Shown: positions 45,265 to 54,720 of the stretch, one piece after another
Numbering within the stretch: position 1 is the first letter of the stretch
How the letters are laid out: each line of letters starts with the position of its first letter
Origin: Granulicoccus phenolivorans DSM 17626 = NBRC 107789 = JCM 15570
Lineage (GTDB): Bacteria > Actinomycetota > Actinomycetes > Propionibacteriales > Propionibacteriaceae
DNA: 64,000 bases
Assembly (NCBI RefSeq): GCF_000423085.1
Contig: NZ_AUHH01000008.1
Coordinates: 1 to 64,000 of the forward strand
Reading direction: 5' to 3'
Translations under genes and position numbers: made by a program
The notes under the pieces: model-generated
What the model was told of the DNA's origin: nothing
The model's input: the letters and a program-made list of their open reading frames with translations, nothing else
Databases searched by the model: none

Positions 45265-45573
45265 TCAGCTCTCGATGCCGGTGACTTTGACCTGGGTGTA
45301 GCGCTGGCGATGGCCCTGACGCTTCTTGTACCCGGTCTTGTTCTTGTACTTCAGGATCCGAACCTTCGGGCCCTTGGTCTCGGCCAGCACCTCAGCGGTC
45401 ACCGACACCTTGTCCAGGGCACCCTTGTCGGAGGTGACGGAATCGCCGTCCACCACCAGCAGCGGCTGCAGCGACACGCTGGAGCCCACCTCTTCGGCGA
45501 CCTTGTCGATCTCGACAATGTCGCCCACGGCCACCTTGTGCTGGCGGCCGCCACTGCGCACGATCGCGTACAC
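45265..45573 (-). CDS. rplU: Ribosomal protein L21
   Basis: 102 residues from GTG 45573 ([20 protein letters not shown]), the usual start of actinobacterial L21. The end [20 protein letters not shown] is typical. A longer frame to 45639 has no binding site or family support. Confidence 0.96.
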
Positions 45574-45753: not shown

Positions 45754-46974
45754 CTACACGCCCCAGGTGACGTGAAGTTCTTTCGGCCCCTGGGACACCC
45801 AGTCCCAGAAGCACCCGTCGGCCGGAGCCTGCGACTGCAGCGCCGGCAGGGCCCGCAGCAACTCCTCCAGCCCGATCCGGCAGACCGCGGTGGCGAAGTA
45901 GCCGCCGGGGCAGGCCCGGCGTCCGGTCCCGAAGGCCAGATGCTGGTCGGCGGCCCGCCACAGGTTGAATGTGGTCGGGGTGTCCCAGTGGGTCTCGTCG
46001 TGGTTGGCCGACCCGTAGGACTGGATGATCACCGTGTGCTTGGGCACATGGAATCCGGCGATCTCGGTATCGGCGATGGCGACCCGGGGCGTGGAGCACC
46101 AGGCGGGGGCGACCCAGCGCATTCCCTCGGCCACCGCGCGCGGGATCAGCGTCGGATCGGCGACCACCGCCGCCAACTGGTCGGGGTCACTGAACAGTCC
46201 GACCAGCGTCGCGAACATCGCGCTGCCCGGCTGCTGCATTGCGCACAGCAGGAAGGCGTAGATCGTGGGGTAGATGTGACCCCAGTCCCGGGTCTCGCCG
46301 GCGGGCATTCCGTCATGCAGCCAGTGCGAGAGCCACACGTCCTCCGGCGAATCGGTCCAGGTGTCCAGCAGCGGATCGACCGCTTCGCGGATCGCCGTCT
46401 TGGCCCGGTCCCCGACCTCGAACCGCCCCTGGTCGAGGAAGCGGCCGTCGTCGTCGACGGCGACGTTGGTATAGGACACGCTCAGCTCATCGGACCAGGT
46501 CAGCAGCCGCTCGCAGCTGATGCTGTACAGCCCCATCGCATCGCCCAGCACCCGCACGCTCAGCGGCATGAAGTACTGGCGGACCAGTTCGGCACGGCCG
46601 TCCTCGAGGAACCGGGCCAGGCAGTCCCGGGCGATCGGTCGCACCAGGTCATCGACCCAGCGGTCCACCTCGGCCGGTTGCAGACACGGATCCACCATCG
46701 CGCGCAGCTCGGCATGGATCGGGCCGTTGGCCCCGAACACCGCCGGGTGCCCGAGCGTACGCCCGCCGGCCGGGGTCGCGACCGCCCCGAAGTCCGGGCT
46801 GCCGGCCACCTCACGGCAGACCTCGTGGGAGGTCCCGACCACCGCTCCCAGGTGCGGCAGATGGGCCAGCGGAGCCTCCTTGCGCAGCCGCGCCCAGGCC
46901 GGGTACGGATTGCGGTCCCACTGCTCCGCGGTCAGGTCATCGGCCCACGACAGGGTCGGAATCTGAATCTTCAT
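45754..46974 (-). CDS. Cytochrome P450, divergent paralogue of GcoA
   Basis: 406 residues, aligning without gaps to the GcoA-like protein at 49198. The heme cysteine is Cys355 in FGTGRRACPGG; the ExxR motif is EGMR. Relative to the partner, pocket residues change: Phe74 to Leu, Phe168 to Tyr, Val240 to Ala, Gly244 to Cys, Ile291 to Ala and Phe394 to Ser, and the I-helix acid in MQEPG becomes MQQPG (Gln248). It therefore probably has a different, perhaps larger, substrate. No reductase gene accompanies it, so it likely shares the one at 48166. It diverges from its own AraC gene. Confidence 0.87.
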   Translation of the reverse strand: MKIQIPTLSWADDLTAEQWDRNPYPAWARLRKEAPLAHLPHLGAVVGTSHEVCREVAGSPDFGAVATPAGGRTLGHPAVFGANGPIHAELRAMVDPCLQPAEVDRWVDDLVRPIARDCLARFLEDGRAELVRQYFMPLSVRVLGDAMGLYSISCERLLTWSDELSVSYTNVAVDDDGRFLDQGRFEVGDRAKTAIREAVDPLLDTWTDSPEDVWLSHWLHDGMPAGETRDWGHIYPTIYAFLLCAMQQPGSAMFATLVGLFSDPDQLAAVVADPTLIPRAVAEGMRWVAPAWCSTPRVAIADTEIAGFHVPKHTVIIQSYGSANHDETHWDTPTTFNLWRAADQHLAFGTGRRACPGGYFATAVCRIGLEELLRALPALQSQAPADGCFWDWVSQGPKELHVTWGV

Positions 46975-47057
46975 GGAGACTCCTTCCTCCGCGCTAGGGG
47001 GTATGACGCAGATCACATAGGCTGGCTGTGCATTCAAGCTACGGAGAACCGCGGAAC

Positions 47058-47096
47058 CGGGAAATACTGAAAGCGCGGGCTGTACGAAAAGCGCGG
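47058..47096. promoter_or_regulatory. Conserved promoter motif of the P450 paralogue
   Basis: Contains AAATACTGAAAGCGCGG (47062-47078) and CTGTACGAAAAGCGCGG (47080-47096), that is, two direct copies ending GAAAGCGCGG and GAAAAGCGCGG about 18 bp apart. It is almost identical to 50504-50537 in the promoter of the other P450/AraC pair. Direct repeats are the usual AraC binding arrangement. Confidence 0.7.
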
Positions 47097-47181
47097 CGCC
47101 GATCGGGGGGAATCAGGCGTCACCAGTCCGCGGAAGCGGATCCGGGGGATCCCGCGGCGTCGCCTGATTGGGGGGATTCCA

Positions 47182-48147
47182 GTGCACCGCAGTCGTACCC
47201 AGAGTTGGGACGGGGCCACCGAACTCACCAGCGCGGCCTATTTCCCCCACCGCCTGGTGCCCAAGGGACACGCCGCGCCCGACTTCCGGATCGCGGCCGT
47301 GGACTACGGACCGGTCACGATCGGCCGGGTCAGTTTCGGGGCCGAACTCGCGATCGAATGTGAATATCCCGGCGCGATCGAGATCAACTTTCCGCTCGTG
47401 GGCGCGGTGGAGTCCCGGTTGGGGTCGGCGGAGTTCGGTGCGGCGCGGGGGCAGGCGACCATCTTCGACGCCGACCAGCGTCACGACATCACCCGCTGGA
47501 CGACCGATTGTGAAGTGATTGCGGTCAAGTTCGATGCGGCCTGGCTGCGCGAGCAGGCCGCCCGGGGCTTCGACGCCGGCCCCGGCCTGCAGCTGCCGCA
47601 TCAACTCGATCTGCGGCGGGCCTCGACCGCGGATTGGTTCCGGTTGCTGCGGGGACTGCACAGCAGCGGGGTGTCCGGCGGGCCGGTGGCGCCGATGCTG
47701 GCCGATGCGGTCGCGACCTCGTTCCTGTTGGCTTCGCTGCCGGACCCCGATCACGGCCGGGGCGTCAACGATCGCACCGCGGCCACCGTGGTCCGCCCGG
47801 TGCTGGAGGCGCTGGCCGCCGACCCGGGCCGGAACTGGACCGCGCTGGAGATGGCCGAGATCGGTCAGGTGAGCATCCGACGGCTGCAGGAGGCCTTCCG
47901 CAAAACGCTCGGCCAAACGCCCCGGCAGAAGCTCCTCGAGCTACGGCTGGAGCACGCCCGGGCCCAATTGCGCGCGGGCCGAGGCAGCGTCACCGAAATC
48001 TCGGCCGATCTCGGCTTCAGCAACCCCGGCCGCTTCGCCGCCGCCTATCGCCGGCGGTGGGGCGTCCTGCCCAGCGAGGACGTGCCCCGCTGGGCGCTGC
48101 AGCATCCGCCGGGGCGCCAGCGCCTGCTCACGCTGCAACCCGCCTGA
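47182..48147 (+). CDS. AraC-family regulator (paired with the P450 paralogue)
   Basis: 321 residues from GTG 47182. The sensor half resembles the AraC-binding-like domain (YFPHRLVPKGHAAPDFRIAA, GAIEINFPLVGAVESRLGSA), and the C-terminal half has both helix-turn-helix motifs ([40 protein letters not shown]). It is a close paralogue of the AraC at 50612. It diverges from the P450 at 45754 across the shared motif and likely activates it. Confidence 0.9.
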   Translation: MHRSRTQSWDGATELTSAAYFPHRLVPKGHAAPDFRIAAVDYGPVTIGRVSFGAELAIECEYPGAIEINFPLVGAVESRLGSAEFGAARGQATIFDADQRHDITRWTTDCEVIAVKFDAAWLREQAARGFDAGPGLQLPHQLDLRRASTADWFRLLRGLHSSGVSGGPVAPMLADAVATSFLLASLPDPDHGRGVNDRTAATVVRPVLEALAADPGRNWTALEMAEIGQVSIRRLQEAFRKTLGQTPRQKLLELRLEHARAQLRAGRGSVTEISADLGFSNPGRFAAAYRRRWGVLPSEDVPRWALQHPPGRQRLLTLQPA

Positions 48148-48165
48148 GCCGCCGCCGGCGCCGGG

Positions 48166-49194
48166 TCAGCCGGCGACCAGGTCGCGGGTGCGAGCCGGGG
48201 TGAAGCGTTCCCGGAACGTACGCCGGGGCGCCAGCCGCCGCCGTTTCGCCGCGGCCGCGACCCCGTCGACGAACCGGTCCGAACCACACAGGTAGCCGGT
48301 CATCCCGCGACAGGTCGACAGATCCTCCAGCAGCCGGTCGGAGACGTACCCCATGCAGCCCTCGTGATGCTCCCGGCTGACCGCCGGGCGGAAGGTGAAG
48401 TTCGGGTGCGCCGCGGCGAGGTCGGCCCAGAACTGCTGATCGTAGAGGTACGCGCAGGTGCGTACCCCGTGATAGACGATGACTTCCCGCTCGGGGTTGT
48501 CAGCCAGGGCGGCGCGGGCGATCCCCTTCAGCGGGGCGATTCCGGTGCCGCCACCGAGCAGCAACAGTCCCCCGTCGGTGTCGCTGGGATCGTAGACGAA
48601 GTCGCCGAGCGGACCGCTCAGTTCGACGCTCTCCCCCACCCGGATCGTCCCGTTGGCCCACTGATCGGAGGCCACGCCCCCGGCTTCGCGACGGATGTGC
48701 AGTTCGATCTCGGGGTCGGTGGGTAGGCTGGCGATCGAGTACTGCCGGCGCTCCCCCGGCGCTCCGGGGACGTGCAGCGACACCGACTGCCCGGCGCTGA
48801 ACTCGAACTCCCGATCCGGGCGCAGGTACACGATGCGGGTGTCCTGGGCGACATCGTCGACCCGGGTCACGATGGCGGTGAAGTCGATCAGCGGATGGTG
48901 CACCGCATCGGTGCCGCCGTCGGCGGCCTCGACGGTGACGTCACTGGTGGCGACGGCCTGACAGGTCAGCGTGTAGCCGTCGGCGCGGTCCTGGTCGGTC
49001 AGGGTGCTCAGCGGGGAGTCCCGGTGGTCGACCTCCCCGCAGAGCACCTTGAGCTTGCAGGTGCCGCAGGTGCCCTGGTTGCAGGAGTTGGGCATCCAGA
49101 CCCCGGCGCGCAGCATCGCGTCCAGCATGGTCTGATCGGCGGCGGCGGTGACGGTGTCGTCGCGTCCGGCGATGGTGATGGTGTGCTCGGTCAT
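48166..49194 (-). CDS. gcoB: P450 reductase, ferredoxin-FAD-NAD fusion (GcoB-like)
   Basis: 342 residues in three parts. A plant-type 2Fe-2S ferredoxin (Cys38, Cys43, Cys46 and Cys78 in CNQGTCGTC and LTC), an FAD domain with RQYS at 150-153, and an NAD domain with GGGTGIAP at 214-221. This order is that of GcoB, the single-protein reductase of guaiacol O-demethylase. It starts 3 bp after the P450 stop and should pass NADH electrons to that P450 and probably also to the paralogue. Confidence 0.9.
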   Translation of the reverse strand: MTEHTITIAGRDDTVTAAADQTMLDAMLRAGVWMPNSCNQGTCGTCKLKVLCGEVDHRDSPLSTLTDQDRADGYTLTCQAVATSDVTVEAADGGTDAVHHPLIDFTAIVTRVDDVAQDTRIVYLRPDREFEFSAGQSVSLHVPGAPGERRQYSIASLPTDPEIELHIRREAGGVASDQWANGTIRVGESVELSGPLGDFVYDPSDTDGGLLLLGGGTGIAPLKGIARAALADNPEREVIVYHGVRTCAYLYDQQFWADLAAAHPNFTFRPAVSREHHEGCMGYVSDRLLEDLSTCRGMTGYLCGSDRFVDGVAAAAKRRRLAPRRTFRERFTPARTRDLVAG

Positions 49195-49197
49195 GGC

Positions 49198-50418
49198 TCA
49201 GACCTCCCAGGTGACGTGCAGTTCCTTGGGGCCACGGAAGCCCCAGCCCCAGAACTCGACATCGGAGTCGGTGTCCCGCTCGAGGTTCGGGATGGATTCG
49301 AACAGTTCCTCCAGGCCGATCCGGCAGACCTGATTGGCGAAGTAGATGCCGGCGCAGGCATGGTTGCCGAAGCCGAAGGCCAGGTGCGGCAACGGTTTGC
49401 GACGCAGATCGTAGGTCGAGGGGGCATCCCAGCCGGCCTCGTCGTGGTTGGCCGAACCGTAGGACTGGATGATCACGGTGTCCTTGGGGATGTGGAAGCC
49501 GCTGACCTCGGTGTCGGTGAGCGCGACCCGGGCCGAGGCGGACCAGATCGGGGAGGTCCAGCGCATCCCTTCGGCAATGGCTTGCGGGATCAGGCCCGGC
49601 TCGTCGACGACCGCGTCCAACTGCTCCTGATCGGTGAACAGGCCGACCATCGTGGAGGCCATCCCGTGGCCCGGCTCCTGCATCGCGCCCAGCAGGAACA
49701 CGTAGATCGTCGGGTAGATGTAGTCGCGGTCCCGGGTCTGGCCCTCGGGCATGCCGTCGTGCAGCCAGTGGGAGATCCACACGTCCTCGGGATCGGTGGT
49801 CCACTTGTCCAGCAGCGGGTCCACCGCGGCGCGGATCTCGGCCTTGGCGCGGTCGCCGATCTCGAACCGGGTGTGATCGAGGAACTCGCCGTTCTCATCG
49901 ACGCCGGCGTTGGTGAACGAGACGCTGAGGGCGTGGAACCATTCGCGGAGTTTGTCCGAGCTGATGCTCTGCAGGCCCATCGAGTCGCCCAGGGCGCGTA
50001 CGCTCACCGGCTCGAAGTACTGCGAGACCAACTCCGCCGCGCCGTCGTCCTCGAACTTCTCCAGGTAGCTGCGGGCGATCGGGCGGACCAGGTCCTCGAT
50101 CCAGCGGTCGACCTCCGAGGGCTGCAGGGCCGGGTCGACCATGGACCGCAGGTCGGCGTGCACCTCGCCGTTCACGCCGATCACCGCCGGGTGACCGAAG
50201 GTACGCCCACCCGCCGGGGTGATGATGCCGCCGAAGTCCGGGCTCGCGCCGACCGCGCGGCAGGTCTCCAGCGACGTCGCGACCGCGGCGCCGAGAATCG
50301 GCAGATGCGCCAGCGGTGCTTCCTTGCGCAGCCGCTCGTAGGTCGGGTACGGATTGCGCTCCAACTGCTCCATGGTGACCTCGCGGGTCCACTCCAGGGT
50401 CGGAATCTGCATCGTCAT
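49198..50418 (-). CDS. gcoA: Cytochrome P450 aryl-O-demethylase (GcoA-like, CYP255-type)
   Basis: 406 residues. Phe74, Phe168 and Phe394, together with Val240, Leu243, Gly244 and Ile291, match the known guaiacol pocket of GcoA once one residue of offset is allowed; Thr296 of GcoA is Ser295 here. The I-helix carries [15 protein letters not shown], and the heme cysteine is Cys355 ([10 protein letters not shown]). GcoA removes the O-methyl group of guaiacol and related lignin aromatics, giving catechols and formaldehyde. It is cotranscribed with the gcoB-like gene and diverges from an AraC regulator. Confidence 0.9.
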
Positions 50419-50503
50419 AGGGACTCCCTCGTCCGGACCGGTCTTGTGACCTGAGCCACAATGGGTTACAAGCGAGTACGCTACGAACACCGCGCTGCCC
50501 GGT

Positions 50504-50537
50504 AAATACCGAAAGCGCGGCTGTACGAATAGCGCGG
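50504..50537. promoter_or_regulatory. Conserved promoter motif of the gcoA-like gene
   Basis: AAATACCGAAAGCGCGG (50504-50520) and CTGTACGAATAGCGCGG (50521-50537): two direct copies ending GAAAGCGCGG and GAATAGCGCGG. It repeats the motif at 47062-47096 nearly base for base. It lies between gcoA (start 50418) and the AraC gene (start 50612). Confidence 0.7.
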
Positions 50538-50611
50538 GCCGCCGTCGGCGAAGGAGCCGGCCGGAAGCAAGGGAGCTTCCCGACATCCGCACTGGCACGA
50601 GGAGGGCGCCG

Positions 50612-51514
50612 ATGGACCGGAAGGGCAGGACCCGGACCTGGGATGCGGCCCACGAGTTGGCTACCCAGACCTACTTTCCGCATCGGCTGCGTCCGCTGGA
50701 CCGGCAGGCACCCGACTTTCGGCTGAACGCCATCGACTACGGGCCGGTCACCATCGGCCGGATCACCTTCGGCCGGGATGTCGCGATCCAGTGCGAGTAC
50801 CCCGGCGCGATCGAGGTGAACTTTCCGCTCACCGGTGGGTTGGAGTCGCGGATCGGTTCGACCGAGGTGTTGTCCGGCGCCGGTCGGGCCACCGTGTTTG
50901 CCGCCGGGGAGCGGCACGACATCACCCGGTGGAGTCATGACTGCGATGTCCTGGGCGTCAAGTTCGACGAGGCCTGGCTGCGCGACCGGGCCGCTCGGGG
51001 GTTCGGGGTGCACGGTGCGCTCGCGCTGCCCCGCCAGCTCGATCTGCGGCAGGCGCCGACCGCGGACTGGTTCCGCCTGCTGCAGGGATTGCACAGCAGC
51101 GGGGCCTCCGGCGGTCCGGTCGCGCTGACCCTGGCCGATGCGCTGGCCACCTCGTTCCTGCTCAGTGTGCTCCCCGAGACCGGGCCGAATCCGGTCGCCG
51201 GCGGTCCGGCGGTGGCGGTGGTGCTGGAGGCCCTGGCCGCTGACCCCGGCCGGGACTGGACCGCCCTGGCGATGGCCGAGGTTGCCGGGGTGAGCGTACG
51301 CCGGCTGCAGGAGTCCTTTGCGAAGGAGCTGGGGAAGACACCGCGGCAGAAGCTCACCGAGTTGCGCCTGGACCGGGCCCGCACGGATCTGCGCGCGGGT
51401 ACGGGAACCGTCGCCGAGGTGGCGGCGAACCTCGGCTTCGGGAACCCCGGCCGGTTCGCCGCGGCGTACCGGGAGCGGTGGGGTGTGCTGCCCAAGGAGG
51501 ACCTGCCCCGCTGA
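50612..51514 (+). CDS. AraC-family regulator (GcoR-like)
   Basis: 300 residues. The sensor half ([40 protein letters not shown]) and the two helix-turn-helix motifs ([40 protein letters not shown]) match its paralogue at 47182. It probably activates gcoAB in response to a methoxy-aromatic compound. ATG is preceded by GAGGAGGG. Confidence 0.9.
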
Positions 51515-51572
51515 GCCCGGCGGCCACCCGCCTACGCTGAGGGGACCCTCTCACCAACGAAGCGGAGAACCC

Positions 51573-51887
51573 ATGTATCGCCTGCACGTCATCTACGGCC
51601 GGCCGACCGACCCGGCTGCCTTCGACGAGTACTACTCGACCACCCACGCGCCGCTGGCCCGGGCCATTCCCGGCCTGCGCGATCTCACCGTGGCCAAGAC
51701 CGAGTCCCTCGACGGGTCCACGCCCACCACCTACCTGATCGCGACCCTCGACTTTGACTCGCAAGAGGCCCTCGGGGCAGGGCTCAGCTCGGCGGAGGGC
51801 CAGGCTGCCGCCGCCGATGTGCCCAACTTCGCCACCGGCGGGGTGACCATGCTCGGTGCCGAGCTGGACAAGCAGCAGCTCGGCTGA
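51573..51887 (+). CDS. EthD-family protein
   Basis: 104 residues. MYRLHVIYGRPTDPAAFDEY and YSTTHAPLARAIPGLRDLTV are the diagnostic EthD start, a dimeric alpha/beta barrel. EthD is required together with a P450 in ether degradation systems, role unclear, so a supporting role for the gcoAB system is plausible. It follows the AraC gene by 58 bp on the same strand, and a palindromic element follows. Confidence 0.85.
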   Translation: MYRLHVIYGRPTDPAAFDEYYSTTHAPLARAIPGLRDLTVAKTESLDGSTPTTYLIATLDFDSQEALGAGLSSAEGQAAAADVPNFATGGVTMLGAELDKQQLG

Positions 51888-52005: not shown

Positions 52006-54720
52006 TCAGTCCTGCTGCTCTCCCGCGTCCGCAGCCGACTCGGCCGGGGAATCCTCGGGCTTGGGCTCCTCGGACTTCGAGTCGTTGTGCTCCTCGGAGT
52101 CGTCGCCATGATCGTGCCGGTGGCTGCGCCCGCGTCCACTGTCGGACTTGCCGTTCCCGTCGGACTTGCCACCGCGCCCGCGGCGGCCACCTCGGCGGTT
52201 GCCCCGATCCCCGCCGTCGGCGGGAGCCTGGGAGTCCACCGGCATGTCATGGATGATGAAGCCACGGCCGTTGCAGCATTCGCACTCTTCGGTGAACGCC
52301 TCGGCCAGGCCGGTCCCGATCTTCTTGCGGGTCAGCTGGACCAGGCCCAGGCTGGTCACCTCCGACACCTGGTGCCGGGTCCGGTCGCGGCCCAGGCATT
52401 CCACCAGCCGACGCAGCAGCAACTCGCGGTTGGCCGGCAGCACCATGTCGATGAAGTCGATCACGATGATGCCGCCGATGTCGCGCAGCCGCAGCTGACG
52501 GACGACCTCCTCGGCCGCCTCCAGGTTGTTGCTGGTGACGGTGGCCTCGAGATTGCCGCCGGCCCCGGTGAACTTGCCGGTGTTGACGTCGATGACGGTC
52601 ATCGCCTCGGTCCGGTCGATCACCAGCGACCCGCCCGAGGGCAGGAACACCTTGCGCTCCAGGGCCTTGGCGATCTGCTCGTCGATCCGGTACACGGCGA
52701 AGGCGTCGCGGGTGTGCCCGTCGGCGTCGGTGCGTTCCCAGTGCTCGATGCGATCACTCAGATGCGGGGCGACGTGCCCGACGTAGGCGGTGATCGTGTC
52801 GTAGGCGTCGTTCTGGGTCCCGTTGCCGTCGATGATCAGCTTGCTGAAGTCCTCGGTGAACAGGTCCCGCACGATCCGGACGGTCGCGTCGGGCTCGCTG
52901 TACAGCTGCTGCGGCACCGGGCCCGACTTCGACTTCTTCTCGATGACCTCCCACTGGGCCTTCAACCGGTTCACGTCGCGGACCAGTTCCTCCTCGGTGG
53001 CCCCCTCTGCGGCGGTACGGACGATCACGCTCGCGTCGGCGGAGATGAGCTCGCCCAGGATCCCCTTGAGCCGCTTGCGCTCGGGCTCGGGCAGCTTCCG
53101 GGAGATCCCGGAGAGGTGACCGCCCGGGGAGTAGACGATGTAGCGCCCGGGCAGTGAGATGTGGGTGGTCAGTCGGGCACCCTTCTGCCCGACCGGGTCC
53201 TTGGTCACCTGGACCAGGATCTGCTGCCCGGACTTGAGCACCTTCTCGATCTGCTTGGGCTGCCCGCTGCCCCCGAAGGCGTCCCAGTCGAGTTCGCCGG
53301 CGTACAGCACCGCGTTGCGGCCCCGGCCGATGTCGATGAAGGCCGCCTCCATCGACGGCAGGACGTTCTGGATCCGGCCCAGGTAGACGTTGCCGATCAG
53401 CGAGGTCGCCGACGCCCGGTCGACGTAGTGCTCGACCAGGATGTTGTCCTCCAGCACCGCGATCTGGGACAGCTCCTCGTTCTGTCGGATCACCATGGTC
53501 CGCTCGACGGCCTCCCGGCGGGCCAGGAACTCGGCCTCGCTCAGGATGGGCGTACGCCGGCGCCCGGCGGCCCGACCCTCGCGCCGGCGCTGCCGCTTCG
53601 CCTCCATCCGGGTCGAGCCGTCGATCCCGGTGACCTCGTCATTGGCCGAAGTGCGGCGCGGCTCCCGGACCCGCACGACGGTGTCGGACGGATCGTCGTC
53701 GGAACCGGAGGTGTCCTCACCCCGACGCCGGCGCCGCCGACGCCGCCGCCGACCCTCACCGGAGGAGTCGGAATCACTGTCGGCGTCCTGCTCGTCGGAG
53801 TCGGAATCCTCGGCATCGGAATCCTCGGACTCATCCCCGGCGGAGTCCTCGGCGTCGGAATCCTCCGCGCCGTTACCCCCGCGGCGACGCCGGCGACCGC
53901 CGCGACGCCGGCGCCGACGCCGCGGCTGGTTGTCGGAGTCCTCCGAGTCCGCCGGCTCATCCTCGGCATCCTCGCCGTCGTCCTCGGTGTCCTCGGACTC
54001 GGCGGCATCCTCGTCGCGGCGGGCCGGCGTACGCCGACGCGAACGGGTACGCCCGGACTCGGCGTCGGCATCTTCGTCGGTCTCGGCCGAGTCCGGCTCG
54101 CCGGCGTCCTCGGTGGTGTCGCTGTCCGCCTTCGGGGTGGCCGGCACCTGGACGATGCTGAACGGATCGGTGAGGACCCGACGCGTACGCCGGCGCCGCC
54201 CCTGGGGCTCGGCCTGCTCTTCGGGCTCGGTCTCGACGCTCGGCGCGTCGAGGTCGTCCTCGGCGGTCATGCCGGCCGCCAGGTCGACCGCGACCGGCTG
54301 CGGCTCGCCCTCGGTTTCCTCGGTGGCAGCCTCCTCGGCGACCTGCTCCTCAGCGTCCTGTTCCTCGGCGACCTGTTCCTCGGCGACCGGCTCCTCGACG
54401 GGCTGCTCCTCGGCAACCGGCTCGTCGGTCGCCTGCTGCTCGGGGATCTGCTCCTCGGCAGCTTGCTCCGCGGCAACCGGCTGCTCCGCCGCGGCCGGCT
54501 TGCGCCGGGGGCGCCGCACCACGGTCCGGGCCTCGGTGGCGACCGCTACCGACTCGTCGGGCATCTGCACGGTGGGCTGCTCGGAAACGGGAATCTCGGG
54601 GACATCCACCGGCGGACCGGCCGGTCGGCTCGCCGCCCGGCGGCGTCGCCGCGGGGCGGGCTGGGTGCTCTCGGGGCTGTCCCCCTCGGCAGGGGTGTTC
54701 GGCGTTTCGTTGTCGAGCAT
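52006..54720 (-). CDS. rne: Ribonuclease E/G, actinobacterial type
   Basis: 904 residues. The first 400 are low-complexity: a Glu/Ala-rich acidic stretch and Arg-rich blocks, likely disordered protein- and RNA-binding regions. The catalytic half starts with the S1-like region (GNVYLGRIQNVLPSMEAAFI) and contains DVNTGKFTG and IVIDFIDM for metal binding. The CECCNGRG zinc-link motif lies near residue 812, followed by a Gly/Arg/Ser-rich tail. It begins mRNA decay and rRNA processing. Confidence 0.93.
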   Translation of the reverse strand: MLDNETPNTPAEGDSPESTQPAPRRRRRAASRPAGPPVDVPEIPVSEQPTVQMPDESVAVATEARTVVRRPRRKPAAAEQPVAAEQAAEEQIPEQQATDEPVAEEQPVEEPVAEEQVAEEQDAEEQVAEEAATEETEGEPQPVAVDLAAGMTAEDDLDAPSVETEPEEQAEPQGRRRRTRRVLTDPFSIVQVPATPKADSDTTEDAGEPDSAETDEDADAESGRTRSRRRTPARRDEDAAESEDTEDDGEDAEDEPADSEDSDNQPRRRRRRRGGRRRRRGGNGAEDSDAEDSAGDESEDSDAEDSDSDEQDADSDSDSSGEGRRRRRRRRRRGEDTSGSDDDPSDTVVRVREPRRTSANDEVTGIDGSTRMEAKRQRRREGRAAGRRRTPILSEAEFLARREAVERTMVIRQNEELSQIAVLEDNILVEHYVDRASATSLIGNVYLGRIQNVLPSMEAAFIDIGRGRNAVLYAGELDWDAFGGSGQPKQIEKVLKSGQQILVQVTKDPVGQKGARLTTHISLPGRYIVYSPGGHLSGISRKLPEPERKRLKGILGELISADASVIVRTAAEGATEEELVRDVNRLKAQWEVIEKKSKSGPVPQQLYSEPDATVRIVRDLFTEDFSKLIIDGNGTQNDAYDTITAYVGHVAPHLSDRIEHWERTDADGHTRDAFAVYRIDEQIAKALERKVFLPSGGSLVIDRTEAMTVIDVNTGKFTGAGGNLEATVTSNNLEAAEEVVRQLRLRDIGGIIVIDFIDMVLPANRELLLRRLVECLGRDRTRHQVSEVTSLGLVQLTRKKIGTGLAEAFTEECECCNGRGFIIHDMPVDSQAPADGGDRGNRRGGRRGRGGKSDGNGKSDSGRGRSHRHDHGDDSEEHNDSKSEEPKPEDSPAESAADAGEQQD

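Follow-up and report, generated by a model that had tools for sequence, protein, structure and literature searches.

The 64,000-nucleotide stretch analysed here (positions 1 to 64,000 of contig NZ_AUHH01000008.1 of Granulicoccus phenolivorans DSM 17626; hereafter the window) carries two cytochrome P450 genes related to GcoA, the CYP255A guaiacol O-demethylase of Amycolatopsis sp. ATCC 39116 (PDB 5ncb). CYP255A enzymes strip methoxy groups that block the microbial use of lignin aromatics. One of the two genes, termed A, is of the orthodox GcoA type (CYP255A) and located 3 bases upstream of gcoB, while the other, termed B, encodes a second P450 of this kind with a rebuilt substrate pocket. Judged from sequence, and with slightly more confidence than doubt, B is read as a neofunctionalised GcoA paralogue that probably O-dealkylates a larger or more polar methoxy-aromatic with electrons from GcoB.

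Both proteins are 406 residues long and align without gaps, with 263 of the 406 residues identical (65%) in the pairwise protein alignment, as the original prediction had stated. Translation of the window likewise reproduced the A-to-B substitutions it had listed, i.e., F74L, F168Y, V240A, G244C, I291A, and F394S in the pocket and E248Q in the I-helix, and added I80F, A294S, S295T, H251S, H353R, and A356P. These positions are in window numbering; GcoA numbers, used below unless stated otherwise, are higher by one (407-residue GcoA chains; structure alignment). The best PDB match for both A and B was GcoA, at nearly equal length. With 54-55% identity to GcoA in the structure alignment, B lies above 50% at equal length and falls within CYP255A by overall sequence, while EGMR (the ExxR motif) and the axial Cys355 (window numbering) represent an intact P450 core. 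The heme loop of B (residues 348-358, window numbering) reads FGTGRRACPGG and resembles the plant P450 consensus FGxGRRxCPG.

The pocket was defined from published work, independently of B, as GcoA positions 75, 81, 169, 241, 244, 245, 292, 295, 296, and 395. Phe75, Ile81, Phe169, Val241, Leu244, Ile292, and Phe395 are given as guaiacol-pocket residues in a passage of PMC9219061, Gly245 in one of PMC6021390, and Ala295 and Thr296 in one of PMC6628648. A and B differ at 9 of these 10 sites compared to 134 of the remaining 396 (Fisher p = 4.9e-4). When site conservation was modelled, 2.2 pocket changes were expected and 9 observed, a number reached in 1 of 200,000 simulations. The proposal that the changes are concentrated at residues touching guaiacol was thus confirmed.

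The homologue set comprised 95 sequences, 37 to 80% identical to A and giving 91 distinct aligned rows, from which, as from the trees, L090 (the Enemella contig of L009) and L085 (the species of L084) had been dropped. Val241, Leu244, Gly245, Gln248, Glu249, Pro250, Gly251, His252, His354, Cys356, and Phe395 are invariant in all 95, and Ile292 is constant in 94 with one exception. B replaces Val241, Gly245, Glu249, His252, His354, and Phe395 as well as Ile292. All five of the guaiacol-pocket residues Phe75, Val241, Gly245, Ile292, and Phe395 are exchanged in B, which in this pocket departs from CYP255A. At the ten pocket positions, B deviates from the most common residue of the column 8 times, followed by 6 times in a 37% identical plasmid protein, while 68 of 97 rows show no deviation. 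None of the 95 homologues examined parallels the rebuilt pocket of B.

Summed over the ten pocket residues, side-chain volume decreases by a net value of about 151 cubic angstroms in B, a plain ledger of side-chain volumes. The bulkier substrate of the original prediction held only in part: this decrease agrees with it, while G245C and I81F add bulk, so that the shape and polarity of the pocket are altered besides its size. The pocket of B is best read as enlarged and more polar. Since nearly all pocket-lining residues are replaced, B probably acts on another substrate, and the substitutions argue strongly for a new specificity.

Two further constant residues are exchanged in the I-helix. QEPGH occurs in 95 of 95 homologues and is also intact in the syringol O-demethylase SyoA and in chain 9ia1, while B reads QQPGS; the motif is used here for its constancy in the homologues examined and not as a published CYP255A definition. 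In a profile alignment, Gln248-Glu249 coincides with the acid-alcohol pair (E-T) of two further P450s encoded in this genome, so that the CYP255A pair would be Gln-Glu and that of B Gln-Gln. According to a passage of PMC7590115, density functional theory places the Glu249 carboxylate in a bond to the substrate methoxy group in a GcoA reaction intermediate. The same source predicts by docking that Gly245Ser and Ala295Ser both reposition syringol in GcoA, leading to O-demethylation and acetal formation, respectively; B has Cys at 245 and Ser at 295. A changed oxygen activation in B (Gln-Glu to Gln-Gln, His252 to Ser), as the original prediction had offered, is possible from these residues.

The P450 tree, the regulator tree, and the gene order agree that B arose by duplication, as had been proposed. 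In the maximum-likelihood P450 tree (90 rows, with neither GcoA nor SyoA among them), A and B are sisters with a support of 99/93 and are joined next by Enemella dayhoffiae with 100/100. Branch lengths are 1.19 for B and 0.064 for A. The tree tool warned that long rows are placed with uncertainty, while long-branch error would be expected to pull B away from A and not towards it. The AraC-family regulators encoded divergently from B and A (R1 and R2, respectively) are likewise sisters (0.996), joined by the Enemella regulator at 0.999. Both trees indicate that regulator and P450 were duplicated jointly after the split from Enemella, so the reductase was left out of the duplication or its copy was later lost. 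Compared with Enemella, B carries 98 unique changes and A 19 (chi-square 53). Two other origins were rejected. B is not a SyoA- or AgcA-type CYP255A branch, as it clusters with A in this tree, and the helix missing from B is intact in SyoA and 9ia1. Nor did it arise by recombination with one of the other genomic P450s, as no 25-residue window (step 5) was closer to any of seven other P450 loci than to A; one tie occurred from residue 371, with 8 of 25 for the other locus and for A.

Orthologues of B were not found in the collections searched. In genome contigs, the best 80 of 115 relatives were all closer to A than to B, and in the genome sets the sequence closest to B reached 60%, below the 65% of A. 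Matches came from 3 of 198 genomes in the family set, 8 of 391 in the order set, 3 of 396 in the phylum set, and 5 of 394 in the class set, which overlap and each contain the genome itself; the genus is represented by this one genome, and the family also by that of Enemella. Among plasmids, 27 records matched (4 of the 27 retrieved), the best at 54%. An orthologue may occur in metagenomes, outside these collections. No such paralogue is named in titles and abstract openings of the literature on this enzyme, a coverage that most subscription papers lie outside.

The trees and the gene order support the duplication of a regulator-P450 module (gcoR-gcoA) beside the existing gcoA-gcoB pair after the split from Enemella. 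The A copy remained a GcoA. In its sequence, the B copy retains the scaffold of a P450 with its heme ligand, an operator-like repeat, and a ribosome-binding site, while nearly all of the substrate pocket is swapped, as are two otherwise constant residues of the I-helix (E249Q and H252S). B would most likely still run an O2- and NADH-dependent monooxygenase cycle, supplied with electrons by the GcoB it shares with A, on a methoxy-aromatic larger or more polar than guaiacol that is oxidised probably by O-dealkylation. The neutral Gln249 may position the ether or phenol of the substrate instead of delivering protons, similar to what is reported for Asn242 of P450cin, and B and R1 may respond to a different inducer through an operator of the same kind.

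A duplicate under relaxed selection and heading to loss, with pocket and catalytic residues drifting since A suffices, is an unlikely explanation of B, in which the open frame would be due to long-lasting weak selection or to a short time. The very long branch of B, the accelerated R1, the lost Glu249 and His252, and the lack of an orthologue in the collections searched would fit it, while the pocket-centred change far exceeds the expectation from site conservation. B comprises 406 codons without stop or indel, and in 300 simulations of neutral evolution down to 65% identity no sequence stayed free of stops. The ratio of nonsynonymous to synonymous substitution (dN/dS) is below 1 at about 0.58 on the B branch, compared to 0.16 on that of A and 0.30 on that of Enemella, a rough three-point arithmetic on Nei-Gojobori (NG86) distances, which were used because the maximum-likelihood dS exceeded 2. 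Heme Cys, ExxR, the ribosome-binding site GGAGGAAGGAG ahead of the start, the spacer element resembling an operator, and the open frame are all kept, which argues against simple decay. Structure prediction of both P450s, proposed earlier as a check, gave AlphaFold2 (AF2) models that both match the GcoA fold. Mean predicted local distance difference test scores (pLDDT) were 83.6 for A and 79.6 for B, and the best VIA-align Z of the A model was 50.2, to GcoA F169H. The B model aligned to the same variant with Z 48.0 (root-mean-square deviation 2.4 over 398 residues) and to wild-type GcoA 5ncb with Z 47.6. Several observations nevertheless weigh against a neofunctionalised B. Its dN/dS is above that of A, its model scores lower in confidence than the A model and is weak near the heme loop and at residues 381-400, and R1 evolved faster than R2 (41 vs 13 unique changes), as under general relaxation. 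Conserved sites beyond the named pocket are also altered in B (L19W, E136M, E194A, and G391D), and two rows 37-40% identical to A, with an overall divergence far above that of B, alter 11 and 17 otherwise-invariant sites, while B alters 11. B is also a singleton among the sequences searched, with no second lineage keeping its residues, and the loss of Glu249 and His252, constant elsewhere, could be a loss of activity. A partial relaxation of selection alongside a function of B is possible on these sequence comparisons.

The remaining explanations concern what an active B would do. A departure from the usual oxygen-activation route, either driven by H2O2 or using the neutral Gln-Gln pair for another reaction (acetal ring closure or ring hydroxylation), is improbable. 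In its favour are the acid/alcohol positions (Q-Q in B, whereas all 95 homologues carry Q-E and the other two aligned P450s of the genome carry E-T), the missing reductase directly behind B, and Ser295, given the acetal products predicted for Ala295Ser with syringol. The relative SyoA is also termed a heme peroxygenase in the title of a paper; however, SyoA retains Q-E, so that Q-Q is not a SyoA signature. Cys245 speaks against such a departure by the O-demethylation predicted for Gly245Ser (passages of PMC7590115), as do the basic residues that might dock the reductase: B keeps Lys or Arg at 14 of the 17 positions basic in at least 90% of the homologues, a count taken irrespective of whether each is exposed towards the reductase. 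The broader proposal that B, a CYP255A descendant, has given up QEPGH for the neutral Gln-Gln pair, works without an ionisable acid/alcohol pair, and attacks a new aromatic ether by a new reaction or a new way of activating oxygen is held at low confidence; if true, A and B would form a natural before-and-after pair within one gene cluster. That B is a GcoA isoenzyme whose pocket has only become looser and which still demethylates guaiacol or syringol is very doubtful. The predicted fold is unchanged and position 169 is variable, with GcoA F169A accepting syringol and guaiacol according to part of PMC6628648, whereas residue 169 of B is Tyr and not small, and Phe395 and Ile292 are both gone. 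Apart from 295 and 296, the remaining pocket residues are reported as highly conserved in that paper, as they are in the 95 homologues.

The neighbouring features are listed in the table below. B has its own divergent regulator and no reductase directly downstream. Among 90 related loci (L090 and L085 included, with some loci cut by contig ends), the regulator is divergent in 77, a reductase lies just downstream in 88, and 18 have an EthD gene no more than 2.5 kb from the P450, while two such P450s at one locus were found in none of the 90. The B-R1 and A-R2 spacers can be aligned over about 130 bases with a local alignment score of 43, compared to a maximum of 27 among 500 shuffles, and the best block contains the direct repeat GAAAGCGCGG / AA(A/T)AGCGCGG. 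This likeness may partly be mere descent from one ancestral spacer. The direct repeat GAAAGCGCGG in both spacers is of the AraC-site kind with a period of 17-18 bp, and the corresponding Enemella spacer, as judged by eye, holds a perfect direct repeat of 12 bp, ACGCTGAACGCG, at an 18-bp period. A scan with GAAAGCGCGG (at most 2 mismatches) found at least 2 sites in just 9 of 90 upstream regions; the motif is thus not family-wide. In the region from 45268-45570 to 52009-54720, the gco cluster is embedded in a housekeeping block, between an RNase E-type gene and rplU, obgE, proB, and proA, while that of Enemella lies on the opposite side of the RNase E gene, past a TIGR03936 gene. A plasmid of Dietzia kunjamensis (L122) carries a complete cluster of regulator, P450, reductase, EthD, and catA, which suggests that gco modules move between replicons.

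Table. Features of the gco cluster in the window (residues in window numbering; a dot marks features without strand)
Feature	Position	Strand	Remarks
B, second CYP255A-like P450 with rebuilt pocket	45754..46974	-	406 aa; ATG start, TAG stop; GGAGGAAGGAG before start
I-helix segment of B, residues 240-253	46216..46257	-	AFLLCAMQQPGSAM; homologues have V240, G244, and QEPGH at 247-251
Spacer B-R1	46975..47181	.	direct repeat GAAAGCGCGG / AAAAGCGCGG, common to A-R2 spacer
R1, AraC-family regulator	47182..48147	+	divergent from B; 65% identity to its duplicate R2
GcoB-like reductase (2Fe-2S, FAD, and NAD domains)	48166..49194	-	ATG 3 bases past the stop of A; sole reductase of the cluster
A, canonical GcoA-like P450	49198..50418	-	71% identity to 5ncb (structure alignment); natural Ser295 (= GcoA T296S)
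Spacer A-R2	50419..50611	.	carries matching direct-repeat element
R2, AraC-family regulator	50612..51514	+	divergent from A; usual gco regulator position
EthD-family protein	51570..51887	+	beyond R2

One reductase (GcoB) serving both A and B, as originally suggested, is plausible, given the single gcoB of the cluster and the 14 of 17 basic positions kept in B; elsewhere, the genome encodes two further reductases that match GcoB at 41 and 37% identity along almost its whole length. Catechol-type products could be used, as the genome contains two catechol 2,3-dioxygenase genes above the family cut-off; a search of the genome for an intradiol catechol dioxygenase gave a single weak PF00775 match. 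A has Ser at GcoA position 296, where none of the 95 homologues has Ser and 75 have Thr. Engineered GcoA T296S gains activity on p-vanillin (a passage of PMC10811788), and A itself may therefore accept 4-substituted guaiacols. A and B may have divided substrates between them.

The solved GcoA variants among the structure matches listed alter one or two pocket residues (F169X, T296X, and F169A/T296S). The A/B pair is a natural experiment on a larger scale, in which nearly the whole pocket and two I-helix residues are swapped within one genome, without gaps and with the same type of operator. Comparing the two enzymes could show what residues determine the range of substrates and if oxygen activation depends on Glu249 and His252.

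Among known systems, GcoA equals B in fold, length, heme ligand, and ExxR. Leu244, Gln248, Pro250, Gly251, and Thr296 of GcoA are kept in B, while F75, I81, F169, V241, G245, E249, H252, I292, A295, H354, and F395 are lost. The fold is also common to SyoA (PDB 8u09, 8u19, and 8u1i), with a VIA-align Z of 43.6 between B and 8u19. However, SyoA retains QEPGH and the C-terminal Phe, B has neither, and B is closer to GcoA than to SyoA. AgcA, the Rhodococcus 4-alkylguaiacol O-demethylase, is placed in CYP255A, the subfamily of B, in a passage of PMC13101465; its Ala at the 296 position is an example of a small pocket change accompanying altered specificity. In contrast, B has Thr there and its changes elsewhere. 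P450cin (CYP176A1) is a different P450 with other redox partners, and the likeness to Gln249 of B is drawn from its description only: the amide of Asn242 replaces the usual I-helix threonine and is reported to steer the substrate, and an amide in the alcohol position is compatible with well-coupled oxidation and can set the regiochemistry (passages of PMC8398027).

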